DNA of 57,952 nucleotides. Origin: Minwuia sp. (GTDB taxonomy: Bacteria > Pseudomonadota > Alphaproteobacteria > Minwuiales > Minwuiaceae). The stretch is from NCBI GenBank assembly GCA_029210175.1, contig JARGPL010000028.1:1-57952 (forward strand), written 5' to 3'. Shown here one piece after another: positions 28,972 through 36,933 of the stretch. Both the position numbers and the translations under genes were made by a program. Position 1 is the stretch's first letter. Each line of letters opens with the position of its first letter. Under the pieces are notes generated by a model that did not search any database, was not told the origin of the DNA, and saw nothing but the letters and a program-made list of their open reading frames with translations.

Positions 28972-31758
28972 ATGACCCAGGACTACAAGGACACCGTCTT
29001 CCTGCCGAAGACCGATTTTCCCATGCGTGCGGGCCTGCCCCAGAAGGAGCCGGAGATCCTGCAGCGCTGGTACGACATGGACATCTGGGGCCAGCTGCGC
29101 CGCGCGTCCGAGGGGCGGGAGAAGTTCATCCTGCATGATGGTCCGCCATATGCGAATGGCGACATCCATGCCGGACACGCCCTCAACAAGATCCTGAAGG
29201 ACGTCATCAACCGCTCGCGCCAGATGCTGGGCTACGACGCCAATTACGTGCCGGGCTGGGACTGTCACGGCTTGCCGATCGAATGGAAGATCGAGGAGAA
29301 ATACCGCAAGGCCGGGAAGAACAAGGACCAGGTGCCGGTGAAGGAATTCCGCCAGGAATGCCGCGAATTCGCCGAACACTGGATCGATGTGCAGCGGGAC
29401 GGCTTCAAGCGGCTCGGCGTGTTCGGCGACTGGGACCGCCCCTACATGACGATGGCCTATGAATCAGAGGCCATCACCGTGCGTGAATTGCTGAAGTTCC
29501 TGATGGACGGCAGCCTCTACAAGGGGTCCAAGGCGGTCATGTGGTCCGTGGTCGAGAAGACCAGCCTGGCCGAGGCGGAGATCGAGTATCACGACCACAC
29601 GTCGTTCACCATCTGGGTCCGGTTCCCGGTCATTCGCACCGAAGACCCGGCGCTGGAGGGCGCGTCGATCCTGATCTGGACCACAACCCCCTGGACGATC
29701 CCCGGAAACCGCGCGCTCGCCTATGGTGAGGATATCGCCTATGGCGTCTATCAGGTCGACGCGGTCGAGGAAGGTTCCCTCGCCGTCGTGGGGGAGAAGC
29801 TCGCCCTGGCTGATGCACTGGCGGAGGAAGTCCGCGCGAAGGCCGGGATCACTGCCTGGACCCGCGTCGCCGAGGTCACGAAGCCGGAAGGCACGGTCTG
29901 TCGTCATCCCTTGAGCGCGCTTGGCTATACCTATGAGGATCGCCTGTTGCCCGCCGACTATGTCACCACCGATCAGGGCACCGGCTTTGTCCATATCGCG
30001 CCGGGGCATGGCGCGGAAGACTTTGACCTGGGGCGCGAACATGGCGTCGAGGTACCGGACACGGTGGGACCGGACGGGGTCTATTATCCGCATGTGCCGC
30101 ATTTTGCCGGGCATCATGTGTTCAAGGCGCATGGGCCGGTGATCGAGACACTGACCGCACACGGCGGCCTGCTGGCCCATGGCAAGATCGTGCATTCCTA
30201 TCCGCACAGCTGGCGGTCGAAGGCACCGCTGATCTTCCGCAACGCGCCGCAGTGGTTCATCTCCATGGAGAAGAACGGCCTGCGGGAAACCGCACTGAAG
30301 GCCATCGACGAGACGGCGTTCTATCCGATCTCCGGCAAGCGCCGCCTGCGTGACATGATCGAACGGCGGCCGGACTGGCTGCTGTCGCGGCAGCGGGTCT
30401 GGGGCGTGCCGATCACCGTCTTCGTTGACAAGCGGACGGGTGAACCGCTGCGTGATCCGGCGGTCAATGAACGCATCGCCACCGCCATCGCAAGGGACGG
30501 CTGCGACGCCTGGTTCGAATCCGACCCGGCTGTCTTCCTGGGACCGGACCACGACCCGGACAACTTCGAGCAGGCGCGCGACATCCTGGACGTCTGGTTC
30601 GATTCCGGCACAACGCACGCGTTCTGCCTGGAACCGCGCGACGACCTGCAGTCCCCGGCGGACCTGTATCTGGAAGGCTCCGACCAGCATCGCGGCTGGT
30701 TCCACTCCTCCCTGCTGGAAAGCTGCGGCACCCGTGGCCGTGCACCCTACAAGGGCGTGCTGACCCACGGTTTCCTGCTGGATGAGAAAAAGGAGAAGAT
30801 GTCGAAGTCGGTCGGCAACACGATCTCCCCGCAGGAAGTCATGAAGCAGTATGGCGCCGATATCCTGCGCCTGTGGGTGGTGGCATCCGATTTCTCCGAG
30901 GACCTGCGTTTCGGGCCGAACATCATCAAGGCCACGGCGGATTCCTATCGCCGCCTGCGCAACACGCTGCGCTTCCTGCTGGGCAATCTGGATGGCTGGT
31001 CGGCGGATGAGGAACTGCCGGTGGCGGAAATGCCGGAGCTGGAACGCTACATCCTGCACCGCCTCGCGGTCATGGACCGGGACCTGCGGCGCAATCTGGA
31101 TGTCTATGACTTCCATCGTATCCAGGTGGAACTGTTCAACTTCTGCACCGTCGAACTCTCGTCGTTCTATTTCGACGTGCGCAAGGACGCGCTCTATTGC
31201 GATGCGGCGACATCCGTACGCCGCCGCGCGGCGCGGACCGTGCTGGACCGGCTGTTCAACGCGCTGGTGACCTGGTTTGCCCCTATCCTCAGTTTCACGG
31301 CGGAGGAAGCCTGGCAGACCCGCTACAACGACCCGACCAACAGCGTGCATCTGAAGCTGTTTCCGGAAATTCCGGCTGAATGGCTGAACGATGCCCTGGC
31401 GACCAAGTGGGACCGCATTGCCCGCATCCGTCGTGTCGTGACCGGCGCGCTGGAGGTGGAACGTCGGGAGAAGCGGATCGGCGCCAGCCTGCAGGCGGCC
31501 CCCGTGCTGCACCTGGACGCAGACGACGCGGCCTTGTTGCAGGGGCTGGATGTGGCGGAGATCTGCATCACGTCCGACATCACCATCACCACGGACCCGG
31601 CACCGGAAGGGGCCTTCACTCTGGAAGACGTCGAAGGCGTCGCCGTGGTGCCTGCCCCGGCCGCTGGCGGCAAGTGCCAGCGCTGCTGGATGGTGCTGCC
31701 CGAAGTGACCGAAACCCAGGATATCTGCAACCGCTGCACGGACGCCGTCGCCGCCTGA
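28972..31758 (+). CDS. ileS: Isoleucyl-tRNA synthetase
   Basis: The 928-residue class I synthetase charges tRNA-Ile. Catalytic motifs are the HIGH-equivalent HAGH in GDIHAGHALNKIL near residue 65 and KMSKS in EKMSKSVGN near 608. The editing domain has WTTTPWTIPGNRALAY and the C-terminus has the zinc knuckle CQRCW...CNRC, as in bacterial-type IleRS. Length is normal. The lspA gene that often follows ileS is not here; a 375-bp region with a long inverted repeat follows. Confidence 0.97.
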   Translation: MTQDYKDTVFLPKTDFPMRAGLPQKEPEILQRWYDMDIWGQLRRASEGREKFILHDGPPYANGDIHAGHALNKILKDVINRSRQMLGYDANYVPGWDCHGLPIEWKIEEKYRKAGKNKDQVPVKEFRQECREFAEHWIDVQRDGFKRLGVFGDWDRPYMTMAYESEAITVRELLKFLMDGSLYKGSKAVMWSVVEKTSLAEAEIEYHDHTSFTIWVRFPVIRTEDPALEGASILIWTTTPWTIPGNRALAYGEDIAYGVYQVDAVEEGSLAVVGEKLALADALAEEVRAKAGITAWTRVAEVTKPEGTVCRHPLSALGYTYEDRLLPADYVTTDQGTGFVHIAPGHGAEDFDLGREHGVEVPDTVGPDGVYYPHVPHFAGHHVFKAHGPVIETLTAHGGLLAHGKIVHSYPHSWRSKAPLIFRNAPQWFISMEKNGLRETALKAIDETAFYPISGKRRLRDMIERRPDWLLSRQRVWGVPITVFVDKRTGEPLRDPAVNERIATAIARDGCDAWFESDPAVFLGPDHDPDNFEQARDILDVWFDSGTTHAFCLEPRDDLQSPADLYLEGSDQHRGWFHSSLLESCGTRGRAPYKGVLTHGFLLDEKKEKMSKSVGNTISPQEVMKQYGADILRLWVVASDFSEDLRFGPNIIKATADSYRRLRNTLRFLLGNLDGWSADEELPVAEMPELERYILHRLAVMDRDLRRNLDVYDFHRIQVELFNFCTVELSSFYFDVRKDALYCDAATSVRRRAARTVLDRLFNALVTWFAPILSFTAEEAWQTRYNDPTNSVHLKLFPEIPAEWLNDALATKWDRIARIRRVVTGALEVERREKRIGASLQAAPVLHLDADDAALLQGLDVAEICITSDITITTDPAPEGAFTLEDVEGVAVVPAPAAGGKCQRCWMVLPEVTETQDICNRCTDAVAA

Positions 31759-32133
31759 GGCGCTTGGCTGACGTCGGACGAAGGCCAGGTCGGGCGTGGG
31801 CGGTCGTACCGCAGCATCGCCATGCGCCCGCTCGGCAAGCGGGACACGGAAGCGTTCCTTGCCCCGGGCGGTGCAATCGCCGATGATGGTTGTAATGGCG
31901 AAGCGGCGCCTTGCCCGCCTTAGATCTGTCCATCAAGTGATGGAATCGCGCCAGCCCGCTTCCCCACCCGGCCACCCATTCAGGATGATCCAGTGGGTGG
32001 CCGGGTGGGGGAGCGGGCTGGTGATGCAATCTGACAGTGGAACGATCCAGGACCTCAAATGAATACGCCCGATTGGACGAAACCCGCAGCTGGCGGTGGC
32101 CTGAGGGCCGCGCGCGAAGCCGGTGCAACCTGA
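31759..32133. other. Intergenic region after ileS without a recognised gene
   Basis: This 375-bp stretch holds a short inverted repeat (CCATCA/TGATGG at 31930-31943) and a 71-bp long hairpin described separately. Open frames cross it on both strands but none has a recognisable product or ribosome site. Confidence 0.6.
31951..32021. repeat. Long inverted repeat, 28-bp arms with 15-base loop
   Basis: Arms at 31951-31978 and 31994-32021 (CCAGCCCGCTTCCCC... and its complement) match in 27 of 28 positions, the exception giving a G.U pair in RNA from one strand. The central 15 bases are TTCAGGATGATCCAG. There is no T-tract after either arm, so a simple terminator is unlikely. Possibilities are a transcript-end stabiliser for ileS or a remnant small mobile hairpin. 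Confidence 0.85.
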
Positions 32134-32940
32134 ATGCTTGTCAGTCTGGGATGCCGCTTTCGCTACAACCTGCAGCAGCCGACGCCGATGATCGCGTTGC
32201 TCAATGTGCACTATTCGCGCTTCGGTGATCTGGAGCGACCAGATCATCTGATCACGAACCCCGGCGTGCCGCTGGAAAGCTATCGTGACGGTTTCGGTAA
32301 CTGGTGCACGCGGCTGCTCGCGCCCGCCGGTGAGTTTGTCCTGTCAACGGATGGCGTCATTCGTGATTCAGGTGCCCTGGACCCGGTCGCCCCCTCCGCG
32401 TGGCAGCACGCGGTTCAGGATCTGCCTTTCGATACACTGGTCTATCTGCTCGGCAGCCGATATTGCGATACGGACCTGCTGTCCAATGAAGCCTGGCGCC
32501 TGTTCGGTGCGACGGAGCCGGGATGGGCGCGGGTGCAGGCAATCTGTGACCATGTCCATCACCACGTGCGTTTCGGCTACGAATTTGCCCGGTCCACCCG
32601 GACCGCTTCCGAAACGCTGGCAGAACAGCGCGGCGTCTGTCGTGATTTCACCCACCTGGCCATTGCCTTCTGCCGCTGCATGAACATCCCGGCGCGGTAT
32701 TGCACCGGGTACCTGAGCGACATCGGCGAGCCGCTGCCGCATCCCTCCGGCGATTTCGCCGCCTGGATGGAAGTCTATCTGGGCGGTCAGTGGTGGGTCT
32801 TCGACCCGCGCAACAACACGCCCCGGATTGCCCGGATCCTGATGGCACAGGGTCGCGATGCCGCCGATGTTCCGCTGACCCAGACATTCGGTCCGAACGA
32901 CCTGGTGGAATTCAAGGTCTGGACAGAAGAAGCCAGCTGA
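32134..32940 (+). CDS. Transglutaminase-like family protein
   Basis: The 268-residue protein has the bacterial transglutaminase-like core with the nucleophile in EQRGVCRDFTHLAIAFCRCM and the following ARYCTGYLSDIGE. Where the family usually has a His-Ala-Trp catalytic histidine, this protein reads DFAAWMEVYLGGQWWVFDPRN, so the histidine is Ala. The N-terminal part is a beta-rich domain typical of this subfamily. No signal peptide. It stands alone, between the hairpin region and the nos relic. Whether it is a protease, a cross-linker or inactive cannot be said. Confidence 0.85.
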   Translation: MLVSLGCRFRYNLQQPTPMIALLNVHYSRFGDLERPDHLITNPGVPLESYRDGFGNWCTRLLAPAGEFVLSTDGVIRDSGALDPVAPSAWQHAVQDLPFDTLVYLLGSRYCDTDLLSNEAWRLFGATEPGWARVQAICDHVHHHVRFGYEFARSTRTASETLAEQRGVCRDFTHLAIAFCRCMNIPARYCTGYLSDIGEPLPHPSGDFAAWMEVYLGGQWWVFDPRNNTPRIARILMAQGRDAADVPLTQTFGPNDLVEFKVWTEEAS

Positions 32941-33227
32941 CCTGTTGGCGGTGCCCTGACCTTCACGGGTGGTCCAGAGCCTGTCCGGGGCGCATCCTTG
33001 TCCGGTGGGCCATATCTGGTTGTCGTGGCCCCTGACGACGATGGCCAGCCGGGCCACCCGCTCGCCTTCCTTGCTGCTGGCCTTGTCTGATGGTGCCGTG
33101 TTCGCCGTGGTCGACAGGATCGGGTCCGGTGCCAACCGCGAAGAGCAGCGGTTGTCGCCACCGGTCATCGTGACAGTCGGGTCGCAAGGATAGATCTGCT
33201 CTGAACCCGGCAGTCGTGATGCCGGCC
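32941..33227. other. Region between transglutaminase gene and nos relic, no confident gene
   Basis: The 287 bp lie between convergent genes. Both strands contain open frames (plus 32969-33193; minus from 33231 running into the transglutaminase gene), but neither shows a recognised motif. It may be degraded sequence flanking the nos remnant. Confidence 0.4.
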
Positions 33228-34076
33228 TCACGAAAGATGCTCAAGTCGCGCCCCTTGAAAACGGGCGAGTGCGGCCTTGATGTCCTCGTGGCGCATGAGA
33301 CTGAACGCCGTGGACAATGCGTCGGCGACCGCCGCGCGCCTGTCCGATACCGAGACCAGTTCCCACTGCCCGCCGGGTTCGCCAGGGCGCGGGTCGATGA
33401 TGTGGTTGGGCTGAATGCCATTGGCCGGTGCTGCTGCCGGGACCGGTGCTGCCAGGACCGGTGCTGCCAGGGCCGGTGCTGACAGGGCCGGTGCGGAGGT
33501 CGCGAGCGCGCGGTCCGACAGTTCGACCGTGCCGACGGTTGCGCCGTCAGGGCGACCCATGCCGACCTGCCACGGCACATCTGCCGCGCGATGTCCCCGG
33601 GCGCTGATTTCGCCCATGTCGATCAGCACATTGGAAAAGCCGTGCGCCCGGAGCAGGTTCGACACCCGATCCGCCACGTAACCTTGTGCAATGCCATTGA
33701 AGGTCAGGGCCATGCCCCCGCGCACATCAGCGCCCACAACAAACAGGGCCTGATCCGCGTTGATCCAGTTGCTGGCACCCGGCTCGGCCCAGCTCGGGGC
33801 CGCCCCCATGTCGGAGACGTAGACAGCGACAACGGGCGCAGTCCGTTCAGGCCCCATCAGATAAGCCAGGCCGTCCCGCACCTGGGCGAAGAAGATGGGA
33901 TGGGCATGGCCTTCCAGATGTATCTGGGCCTTTGGCCCGCCATGTTCGATGACCTGCATCTGGCAGAAGTGACTGAGTGCGTCTGCCGTGAGGGGAACCG
34001 GCCCGGGCATTTCCGCCTGTTCTTCCTGACAGGCTGCAAGGACCAGAAGACTGGCGATGATCAGCAGTGCTCTCAC
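33228..34076 (-). pseudogene. nosL-'nosX fusion remnant (NosL lipoprotein joined to C-terminal half of ApbE-like NosX)
   Basis: A 282-residue open frame joins two genes. Residues 1-121 match NosL, the copper chaperone lipoprotein for N2O reductase: lipobox VLAAC, HFCQMQVIEHGGPKAQIHL and YVSDMGAAPSW. At about residue 121-124 it passes directly into the C-terminal half of NosX, an FMN transferase: LTFNGIAQGYVADRV, VLIDMGEISARG, SDRALATS, HIIDPR and VADALSTAF. The NosL C-terminus and NosX N-terminus are missing, consistent with one in-frame deletion. An Ala/Pro repeat (33427-33489) expands NosX after ALATS. The GTG start overlaps the upstream nosY stop, as in intact operons. Probably non-functional. 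Confidence 0.8.
33427..33489. repeat. 15-bp tandem repeat inside the nosX remnant
   Basis: Four adjacent units (one of 18 and three of 15 bases) based on GGTGCTGCCAGGACC. In the minus-strand frame they encode alternating SAPAL/AAPVL-type residues inserted between ALATS and the DPR motif. The expansion keeps the frame open. Confidence 0.85.
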
Positions 34077-34405
34077 AGCTCGACCCGCCTGAAGAACCCC
34101 TGCGCGATGGCCAGAGCCAGAATGGGCCAGACAATCAGCGAAAGCGTGCCGCGTTCGACTTCACCGGCGATGGCATCGAAGACGATCAGCAGGGCAAGCA
34201 GGGGCGTCAGGTAGACGGCGAGCGTGGTCATGGACGCCACGGAAACGGTCAGCAAATCAACGCCCAGCGCTGCGGTTGGTCCGGCGCCCGCAAAGGTCAG
34301 CGCCAGCGAGAAGGCGAGCATGAGCAGCGTTGCCATCAGCGCCCAGCGGTTGCGCAGGGCAATGCGGATCTCGATCGCGGAGATCGCCAGGATACGCGCC
34401 ATCAT
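34073..34405 (-). pseudogene. Internally deleted nosY (ABC permease) remnant
   Basis: A 110-residue frame begins like the permease NosY: MARILAISAIEIRIALRNRW, two hydrophobic segments, then FDAIAGEVERGTL. Around residues 88-93 it jumps to a short end, WPILALAIAQGFFRRVEL, which resembles the extreme C-terminus of NosY. Intact NosY is about 270 residues with six membrane spans, so roughly 160 residues are missing, with frame kept. The start overlaps the stop of the upstream remnant (ATGA) and its stop overlaps the nosL start (GTGA). It should not form a working permease. Confidence 0.78.
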
Positions 34406-35265
34406 GTCAGCCCCTCCCCCGAGTAGTGGCGGTAGATGTCGTCCAGGCTGGGGTCATGCAACTGGACATCGGACACCAGATCGCCGAGGTCGGTGACACT
34501 GGCCAGCAGGGCCAGCTTGCCGTCCTGCAGGCAATTCAATTCGACGGAGGCACCATTGACCCGCCGCCCGCCCAGCCTCTCGTGAACCGCTTCTGTCCGT
34601 CCGTCTTGCGCCGTAACAACGATCCGGATCGGCAATCCGGCCCGCATTCTCAGGTTTCCCAGCCTGTCGTTGGCAATCAGACGACCCTTGCTCAGGATCG
34701 CGATCCGGTCTGTTCTTGCCTCGACTTCAGTCAGGGCATGGCTGGCGATGACAATCGTTGTGCCCTGTGCGTTCCAGACATAGACGCCATTGCCACGGTC
34801 ATTCACGCGGTGGTCGCGGCGCCCTTCGATGACATTGCCGATCACAGCTGCATCATGTGCGCCGTGGACATCGACACCGTAGAGATTGCCGATCAGGTGA
34901 TTGCCCACCACCCGCGAATTCCTGGCCTTCTTGCCGAGCCTGATGCCGGCATCGCGGGTTTCATGCGATGATCCGGAGCCGCGAATGGTCAGGCTGCGGA
35001 TCGTCACGTCCGGAACCTGAACGACAATGACGCTGCCTTCGCCGCTGCCCTCCACGGTCGTGTTCCCGGCATCGCCCGGCAGCACCAGCGGACGGTCGAT
35101 GACAACCGGCCCTGCATGGACGCCGGGTGCCAGCCGCAGCACGTCACCGGGCGCTGCCGCCTGGATGGCGGATACAAGCGCACCGGGCCGCGCCGGCACG
35201 TCCACTTCCGCCGCCCAGAGGGGCGACGCAATGAACACCAGCATGGCCGCGGCGCGCTTGATCAT
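34402..35265 (-). pseudogene. nosD'-'nosF chimera (periplasmic beta-helix protein joined to ABC ATPase tail)
   Basis: The 287-residue frame starts as NosD: signal peptide (LVFIASPLWA), then beta-helix repeats ending DRGNGVYVWNAQG near residue 168. It continues as the C-terminal part of the ABC ATPase NosF: IASHALTEVEARTDRIAIL (H-loop region) and the end SLDDIYRHYSGEG. The NosD C-terminus and the NosF Walker A, Q-loop, signature and Walker B are absent. NosD is periplasmic and NosF cytoplasmic, so a fusion carried by a signal peptide makes no topological sense and supports a deletion event. It starts three bases after the nosZ stop. Confidence 0.82.
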
Positions 35266-35268
35266 GGC

Positions 35269-35376
35269 CTAGGCCGAACGCGGCTCGACGAACATCCGTC
35301 CACGCATCTCCATGTGCAGCGCATGACAGAACCACTGGCAATCGAACCAGTGAACGCCAGGCCGTTCTGCGGTGGC
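35269..35376 (-). pseudogene. nosZ 3' remnant (CuA-site end of nitrous-oxide reductase)
   Basis: Reading the minus strand to the TAG at 35269 gives about 34 codons matching the C-terminus of Nos[21 protein letters not shown] and then [10 protein letters not shown]. The CuA ligand pattern C-x-W-x-C-x3-H-x2-M is complete. All upstream nosZ sequence, including the CuZ propeller, is missing: beyond about 35376 the sequence becomes a transposase relic. No start codon or ribosome site is associated, so it cannot be expressed as a protein in its own right. Confidence 0.85.
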
Positions 35377-35380
35377 TCTG

Positions 35381-35520
35381 TTTGTTTGAACAACGCCAGG
35401 CGGTTTCGCTGGTGGATTTCCGCCCTGTCTGCGACGGTGCCGGAATTGGCTGCTGCTTGAGATATGCCTGATCGGGCGTCTGGCCGCCGAGCGATGAATG
35501 TGGCCTCACATATAGAGCGA
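35381..35520 (-). mobile_element. Relic of an IS3-type transposase C-terminus
   Basis: In one minus-strand frame the sequence reads [20 protein letters not shown], the conserved C-terminal end of IS3-family (rve-type) transposases, followed by about 25 degenerate residues. The catalytic DDE domain and terminal repeats are absent. It directly abuts the nosZ stump, suggesting that an insertion-sequence event removed most of nosZ. A 9-bp repeat CCTGGCGTT lies in both the relic end and the nosZ stump. Confidence 0.65.
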
Positions 35521-35766
35521 CCAAGGATAGCAGAGGAAACACGCAAACTGTGTTGGGCTGGACGTCAGACACGCCTGGGCCTACGCGCGCGCAAGCCCCC
35601 CTTTTGGATTGATGGGGGGATAGAGGGGGCGGTTCGCTGCGATATCGAACAACGCCACCGTTGGACGAAACTGATTGCGCCAATGAGCGTGCGAATTTCA
35701 ATAGTGGTTGATTTCGTGAGTAAGAATGCGGATAGACAAAAATATATCAATAAAAACAAGGGGTGT

Positions 35767-35854
35767 TGGCGGAGGGAGCGGGATTCGAACCCGCGAGGGC
35801 TTGCGCCCCACACGCTTTCCAAGCGTGCGCCTTAAGCCACTCGGCCACCCCTCC
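35767..35854 (-). tRNA. tRNA-Ser(GGA)
   Basis: The minus strand folds as a serine tRNA. The acceptor arm pairs GGAGGGG with TCCCTCC (one G.U), the anticodon stem CACGC/GCGTG encloses loop TTGGAAA with anticodon GGA, there is a long variable arm, and the T arm is GCGGG-TTCGAAT-CCCGC with encoded CCA at 35767-35769. Its 3' end faces the IS/nos relic, a typical integration site position; no second att-like copy was found in the window. Confidence 0.95.
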
Positions 35855-35988
35855 TGCGGCGCCGGACTATAGCCATTCAGAAGCGGTTGGCAATGTGTGC
35901 CGGAGGGGGGTGCAGCATTTTTTCGGTTCGGGTGTGGCATGCCTGTGCCGGTGCCGTGCCGGTGCCGTGCCGGTGTCTGCGGCCCTGT

Positions 35989-36933
35989 TCAGGCCTTTGC
36001 GGATGCGTCGCGGGCGCGGGCGTAGGTCGCGTAGAGGCTTTCGGTGTCGACTTCCGTATAGATCTGGGTGGTTGACAGTGATGCATGGCCCAGCAGTTCC
36101 TGGATGCTGCGCAGGTCACCGCCCGCCCCGAGCAGGTGGGTGGCAAAGCTGTGGCGCAGGGCGTGCGGGGTGACCGTGTCGGGCAGGCCCAGGCTGCCAC
36201 GCAAACGGCGCACGGCTGCCTGCACGATCTCCGGCCGCAACTGACCACCGCGTGCGCCGAGGAACAGCGCGCGGTCGGGTGTCTCATCGAAAGGACAGGC
36301 GGCCCGACAGGCCTCCACCGCGGCACGGACCTGCGGCAGGACGGGTACGATGCGTGTCTTGTTGCCCTTGCCGGCCACCCTCAGGGTACGGGGCAGGGGC
36401 GCGTCGGCAACGGTGAGTGCCAATGCTTCCGAGATGCGCAGACCCGCCCCGTAAAGCAGGCTGAGGACAGCATGGTCGCGCAGTGCCTGCCACCCGGCTC
36501 CGGCTCCCGCCCCCGCCCCCGCCCCCGCCCCCGCCCCTGTATCGACAGGTGCCGCAATCATGTCCAGGGCCTGATCGGGCGTGATCGCCCTGGGCGTCCG
36601 GTGCGGACGCTTGGGGGCTTGCAGCGACAGGGCGATGGCATTGTGGACAAGCCCGGTCCGGTCGAGCCTGCGGAAGAAACTGCGGACTGCTGAAATGGCC
36701 CTGGCGTTTGACGTGGCGCTCATCCCGCGCCGCCGGCGCGCCGCAATCCAGGCGCGGAAGTCGGCATGGGTCAGATCGGCGAGGGCCTGTCGGTCCAGGG
36801 GAGCGCCCAGATGCGACACCAGAAAGTCCGTCAGATCATCCAGGTCGCTACTGTAGGCGGTGATGGTGCGCGCCGCCGCGCGGCGCTCGGTTTCCAGCCA
36901 GGTCAGCCAGTCCTTGCGCGCGGCGGCATACAT
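35989..36933 (-). CDS. xerC: Tyrosine recombinase XerC
   Basis: The 314-residue recombinase resolves chromosome dimers with XerD at dif. The N-terminal SAM-like domain (TITAYSSDLDDLTDFL) is followed by the catalytic domain with R in GAGLRISEAL, K in AGKGNKTR, the HALRHSFATHLL box, H in LGHASLSTTQIY and the tyrosine at its end. A run of alternating Gly-Ala (about eight GA pairs) lies just before WQALRDHAVLSLLYGAGLR, in the interdomain region, encoded by a CCCGCC-type hexanucleotide repeat (36496-36539). DUF484 and RidA-like genes lie upstream, as is common. Confidence 0.93.
   Translation of the reverse strand: MYAAARKDWLTWLETERRAAARTITAYSSDLDDLTDFLVSHLGAPLDRQALADLTHADFRAWIAARRRRGMSATSNARAISAVRSFFRRLDRTGLVHNAIALSLQAPKRPHRTPRAITPDQALDMIAAPVDTGAGAGAGAGAGAGAGWQALRDHAVLSLLYGAGLRISEALALTVADAPLPRTLRVAGKGNKTRIVPVLPQVRAAVEACRAACPFDETPDRALFLGARGGQLRPEIVQAAVRRLRGSLGLPDTVTPHALRHSFATHLLGAGGDLRSIQELLGHASLSTTQIYTEVDTESLYATYARARDASAKA
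36496..36539. repeat. GC-rich hexanucleotide microsatellite in xerC
   Basis: About seven copies of a CCCGCC/CTCCGG-type unit encode a Gly-Ala run between the two domains of XerC. The unit length is a multiple of three, so gain or loss of copies keeps the frame. Confidence 0.85.

Follow-up and report, generated by a model that had tools for sequence, protein, structure and literature searches.

The closest described systems to the locus reported here are the clade I nosRZDFYLX operons, such as those of Paracoccus (L114), Phaeobacter (L115) and Aliiroseovarius (L119) plasmids, together with the NosDFY complex (7o0y) and NosL (2hpu, 7osf), whose structures have been solved. In the Ruegeria pomeroyi megaplasmid (L113), nosRZDFYL is followed by a cytochrome c gene, and nosX is not annotated alongside. 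Relics have also been described. Strains of Methylacidiphilum fumariolicum carry nos accessory genes without nosZ, for which acquisition followed by loss of key genes was suggested, and truncated nosZ in two other cases was attributed to genome fragmentation (PMC11102522). Corrupted denitrification genes are present in Bacillus bataviensis, including a qnorB with a 217-aa deletion (PMC3475470). A literature search covering titles and abstract openings of the open-licence papers listed returned neither a nos operon reduced in the way described below nor a report of the codon-phase bias discussed here.

The window, i.e. the whole stretch of DNA that was analysed, is a contig of 57952 bases (C13) from a Minwuia genome of 4.085 Mb in 43 contigs (G000, completeness 99.99%). 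On its minus strand, positions 35376-33228 hold the end of nosZ, a nosD'-'nosF fusion, a shortened nosY and a nosL'-'nosX fusion. This remnant shows the order, junction spacing and protein families of the plasmid operons listed above, and its retained NosD, NosF, NosY and NosL parts align with the solved structures. Compared with the former, however, the site lacks nosR, almost the whole of nosZ and the central portions of the other genes; compared with the latter, it has no ATPase core, little of the permease and less than half of NosD. The M. fumariolicum relic is of the same kind, but section 6 of its description (PMC11102522) contains no in-frame shrinkage or fusion; the B. bataviensis relics (PMC3475470) likewise concern denitrification genes but not a nos operon.

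The nosZ remnant (35269-35376, minus strand) comprises about 35 codons and a stop, and was recognized by profile search and by alignment to intact NosZ ends. Its match to TIGR04244 is confined to model positions 597-627 of 627, at 35376-35284; four more codons are followed by the stop codon TAG (35271-35269), the bases gcc and the nosD start codon ATG at 35265. The NosZ tail is 76-94% identical to nine intact NosZ ends, and contains a 12-residue stretch that we take to be the CuA site. Three open frames, all on the minus strand and free of frameshifts and stops, were found by ORF calling. The first (35265-34402, 287 aa) joins NosD up to about residue 171 to the C-terminal part of NosF (about 118 aa): the family search recognized NosD and then the C-terminus of an ABC ATPase, and in the structure search 7o0y_A (NosD) aligned to query residue 172 and 7o0y_B (NosF) from residue 166. 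The second (34405-34073) encodes an internally deleted NosY of 110 aa, as opposed to 276 aa in the solved protein, of which about the first 92 and the last 18 residues are left; 7o0y_D aligned over residues 7-95. The third (34076-33228, 282 aa) joins NosL up to about residue 122 to about 160 C-terminal residues of an ApbE-type NosX, with 2hpu_A (NosL) aligning over residues 18-123 and ApbE/NosX over about 119-276. This last product contains a lipobox-like LAAC and a CQM motif. The gene junctions have been kept, namely the 3-bp nosZ-nosD gap, an ATGA overlap at 34405-34402 and a GTGA overlap at 34076-34073; a 3-bp gap and 4-bp overlaps are also seen in intact operons, though not in every one, and gene order and junction spacing are those of a functional clade I nos operon. 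A first-pass annotation, made from the sequence alone, had already described the order nosZ-D-F-Y-L-X with intact junctions, the same four pieces and the lack of any frameshift or stop, and it is borne out on all these points by the open frames, the family and structure matches and the alignment to intact operons.

The remnant can hardly yield a working enzyme system, because the body of NosZ, the nucleotide-binding part of NosF, most of NosY and the N-terminal half of NosX are lost, and more than half of NosD is also gone. Only the tail is left of NosZ, and a full-length NosY permease is lacking. The nucleotide-binding domain of NosF, with its Walker A, signature and Walker B motifs, is incomplete, and its retained part starts at about the H-loop. 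The whole assembly contains no further match to the NosD-F queries or to the clade I NosZ model, and thus the intact copy that the first-pass annotation had asked about was not encountered by these searches. Such a loss of essential parts, with no intact copy found elsewhere by the NosD-F and clade I NosZ searches, is that of a decayed operon. A search of the genome for NirK gave a best score of 33.4 bits, far under the cut-off of 296.3 bits, and a search for NorD gave no match. A 375-aa open frame (L126, G000:C16:25539-26075) showed a weak match to PF02239 (cytochrome d1), scoring 29.1 bits against a cut-off of 25.5 bits and spanning model positions 40-218 of 368.

Relative to the intact operon L062, about 1.3 kb have been lost from nosD to nosF, 0.44-0.5 kb within nosY and 0.67 kb from nosL to nosX. 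Because identity between the remnant and the closest intact operons is just 62-64% over the retained protein, relatives had to stand in for the parent sequences, and the bases shared at the joins are deduced from them. At the first join (34770-34759, minus strand), GGGC appears common to both parents, and seven of nine bases are shared with L062 as the stand-in; at the second, within nosY (34142-34130, minus strand), TCGCT is present in both L119 parents and TCGCTG in the remnant; at the third, between nosL and nosX (33716-33710, minus strand), GGCATGG is common to the two parents in L012 and in L065, while L062, L063 and L119 have fewer common bases there. Judged from these relatives, the contiguous bases common to the parents at the three joins number about 4, 5-6 and 7, and lie in the same codon phase. 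The joins fall close to the positions first proposed (about 34765, 34135 and 33710). Comparison with intact loci, which had been expected to give the exact deletion ends and any microhomology, provided approximate ends and about 4-7 contiguous shared bases. The joins probably arose by short homology between direct repeats.

At the other side of the nosZ tail, positions 35371-35507 (minus strand) are the end of an IS3-family element. Pfam gave no match in 35144-35701, and the IS end was recognized instead from copies in the congeneric genome G002, where 13 copies of equal length among the matches listed are 72% identical to it; one of the copies, in L111, codes for a transposase of the IS3 type that has rve and HTH_21 domains. 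The IS homology stops at 35371, and the nosZ homology starts no more than a few bases away. Insertion of the IS, or a deletion beside it, would account for the missing body of nosZ.

We consider it probable that the locus is a dead nos operon in early decay, shaped by an IS3 end at nosZ and by three deletions at short repeats, with its frames left open without selection. The order of events that we infer would start from a nosZDFYLX operon of clade I that was located beside a tRNA-Ser gene and resembled Roseobacteraceae-type operons more closely than the operon of the sister species. An IS3-family end would then have come to abut the nosZ tail, most of nosZ and anything upstream of it being lost from the site. 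Three more deletions would have followed, each probably via short direct homology, joining nosD to nosF, the ends of nosY to each other, and nosL to nosX. Since codon-position composition puts half or more of the short repeats in phase, such deletions would often be in frame, and the frames could stay open with no selection acting on them.

The last step rests on a count of exact direct repeats lying 200-2500 bases apart in eight annotated intact nos operons. In-phase pairs made up 27909 of 56067 (50%) at 5 bases, 8630 of 16173 (53%) at 6, 3276 of 5416 (60%) at 7, 1143 of 1753 (65%) at 8 and 372 of 529 (70%) at 9. In shuffle controls the in-phase share was 33-34% when whole sequences were shuffled, and still 47-60% when bases were shuffled by codon position; therefore, much of the phase bias stems from base composition at the codon positions. 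The bias varies with GC3, the 7-base fraction being 0.46 in L115 (GC3 0.60) and 0.74 in L117 (GC3 0.92); the GC3 of the remnant frames is 0.72-0.82. Among the 32 long ORFs of the window, which were picked by length, 1470 of 2520 7-base pairs were in phase, and two cyanobacterial loci showed a weaker bias (356 of 671 and 460 of 924).

Deletions were also simulated in seven operons, three at a time and of 400-1400 bases, with 28000 trials per setting. All three were in frame in 3.7% of the trials when the ends were random, and in 9.8, 13, 16, 22 and 29% when the ends shared at least 4, 5, 6, 7 and 8 bases, respectively. Single operons ranged from 5.8% (L115, 4 bases) to 47.5% (L117, 7 bases), and in L115, the least biased, all three deletions were in frame in just 6-10% of the trials. 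Three in-frame deletions out of three are thus a 10-22% outcome at the homology sizes seen here, and not the commonest result. The earlier view that three in-frame joins are improbable holds for random ends, but much less so for ends that share 4-7 bases. Likewise, the recombination under selection for frame that had been offered to account for them is not needed, since half or more of the short repeats are in codon phase, so that a deletion between two of them frequently preserves the frame. The array of 4.2 copies of a 15-bp unit at 33432-33494 (minus strand), in frame within the nosX part and occupying a stretch that reads GTTFD in both aligned relatives, is a fourth in-frame change; it falls outside the model of three deletions, and a 15-base unit preserves the frame by itself.

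These figures bear on the best-surviving alternative, namely that deletions preserving the frame had an advantage as long as the operon retained some use, out-of-frame ones being harmful, for instance through polar effects or bad products. The 3.7% obtained with random ends would be in its favour, but the phase bias lifts the odds to 10-22%, and each deletion alone removes the core of a maturation protein, so that little function would have been left to protect. We therefore regard it as unlikely.

The retained parts have changed little. At positions where all the other sequences agree, the remnant retains the otherwise invariant residue in 84 cases out of 86 (22/23 in the NosZ tail, 19/20 in NosD, 5/5 in NosF, 10/10 in NosY, 13/13 in NosL and 15/15 in NosX, the last figure omitting the columns displaced by the tandem array). 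The comparison included, with the remnant counted, 18 sequences for NosZ and NosD and 40-41 for the other parts. Several intact NosD genes score worse than the remnant, and in the NosZ tail the remnant is the worst of the 18 by one change. Its terminal branch (0.457) is inside the range of intact operons, but longer than that of G340 (0.317). The retention of 84 of 86 residues implies either that little time has passed since the loss of function or that selection continues, and the former is simpler. The decay is probably recent, as the first-pass annotation had proposed in one of its readings; the retained residues, the branch length and the absence of frameshifts and stops all agree with it.

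Continuing selection would mean that at least one fused product is retained for a function, the likeliest being NosL'-'NosX, which may have retained copper binding at the membrane. Every frame is indeed open, and the NosL part that keeps all of its 13 otherwise invariant residues is also the part that aligns to 2hpu_A. Nevertheless, NosZ is gone, and the tandem array lies within a NosX stretch common to the relatives. In a scan limited to the consensus, no sigma-70-like match was found on the minus strand from the IS end to nosD, the nearest one being upstream of the tRNA-Ser gene. Moreover, the phase bias makes the open frames unsurprising, and recency accounts equally well for the conservation. 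A selected product is, in our opinion, very unlikely. An assembly artefact, with three false joins in the draft assembly (43 contigs) of a strain that has an intact operon, had also been raised but is very unlikely, in that it needs three separate errors within about 1.1 kb, the parents in relatives share just about 4-9 bases at the joins, which is short for assembler confusion, no other NosZ or NosD pieces were found in the assembly with the NosD-F and clade I NosZ queries, and the contig continues for at least 22 kb on both sides.

The operon that decayed appears to be of a different origin from that of its sister species. In the seven genomes of the genus, this one included, NosD is present in G001 and G005, a remnant in G000, only weak ABC-type matches in G003 and G004, and no match in G002 and G006. 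Over the retained parts, identity to the remnant is 64% for Ruegeria pomeroyi (over fewer positions), 62% for G340, 58% for Shimia, 54-55% for the family members G007 and G008, and 45% for the sisters. An unrooted tree of 18 sequences separates the remnant and G340 from all the others with 88% support, and unites the sisters with Azospirillum with 100% support. Acquisition separate from that of the sisters' operon is the likeliest reading, though not a proved one. The Nos segments of G336, a genome of the same class (Alphaproteobacteria), are indistinguishable from those of a Phaeobacter plasmid.

The tRNA-Ser(GGA) gene beside the remnant (35767-35854, minus strand) has a downstream flank that varies among the relatives: a phage-type integrase (4.5 kb off) is found near it in G002, a Type ISP restriction enzyme in G006 and a D5-type primase in G001. 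To judge from this gene content, the flank is a variable spot.

This is a real, probably recent and ordinary case of an operon dying, and codon-phased short repeats can account for its tidy appearance. An open frame is commonly read as evidence of a living gene; here, the three frames match NosD, NosY and NosL/ApbE, and automatic annotation could wrongly ascribe components of an N2O sink to the organism. More generally, it is conceivable that a strong bias by codon position places half to two-thirds or more of the short direct repeats within genes in phase, and that deletions shrink or fuse genes in frame far more often than the one time in three that is usually assumed, a generalization that we put forward tentatively and with slightly less than even confidence. 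If it is true, open, chimeric and shrunken genes are a common stage in the death of operons, and their frames are no sign of selection. The measured phase bias supplies a null model for weighing in-frame shrinkage elsewhere.

Some minor features of the neighbourhood may be added. The genes ileS, transglutaminase and tRNA-Ser(GGA)-xerC are adjacent in the window (28972-36933), but in G002 they are far apart, at about 1.26, 1.43 and 2.11 Mb. In G003, a tRNA-Ser(CGA) gene is found about 150 bp from the end of the transglutaminase gene. The transglutaminase gene of G006 (L082, G006:C34, 34691-35492) matches as two overlapping pieces that differ in frame, as if frameshifted. The gap between ileS and the transglutaminase gene contains a dispersed palindromic repeat (31914-32052), REP- or MITE-like, which among the matches listed has many copies in G000, G002, G003 and G006, one in G004 and none in G001 and G005. 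Finally, the gap between xerC and the tRNA-Ser gene contains a short 11-bp tandem array (35940-35975).
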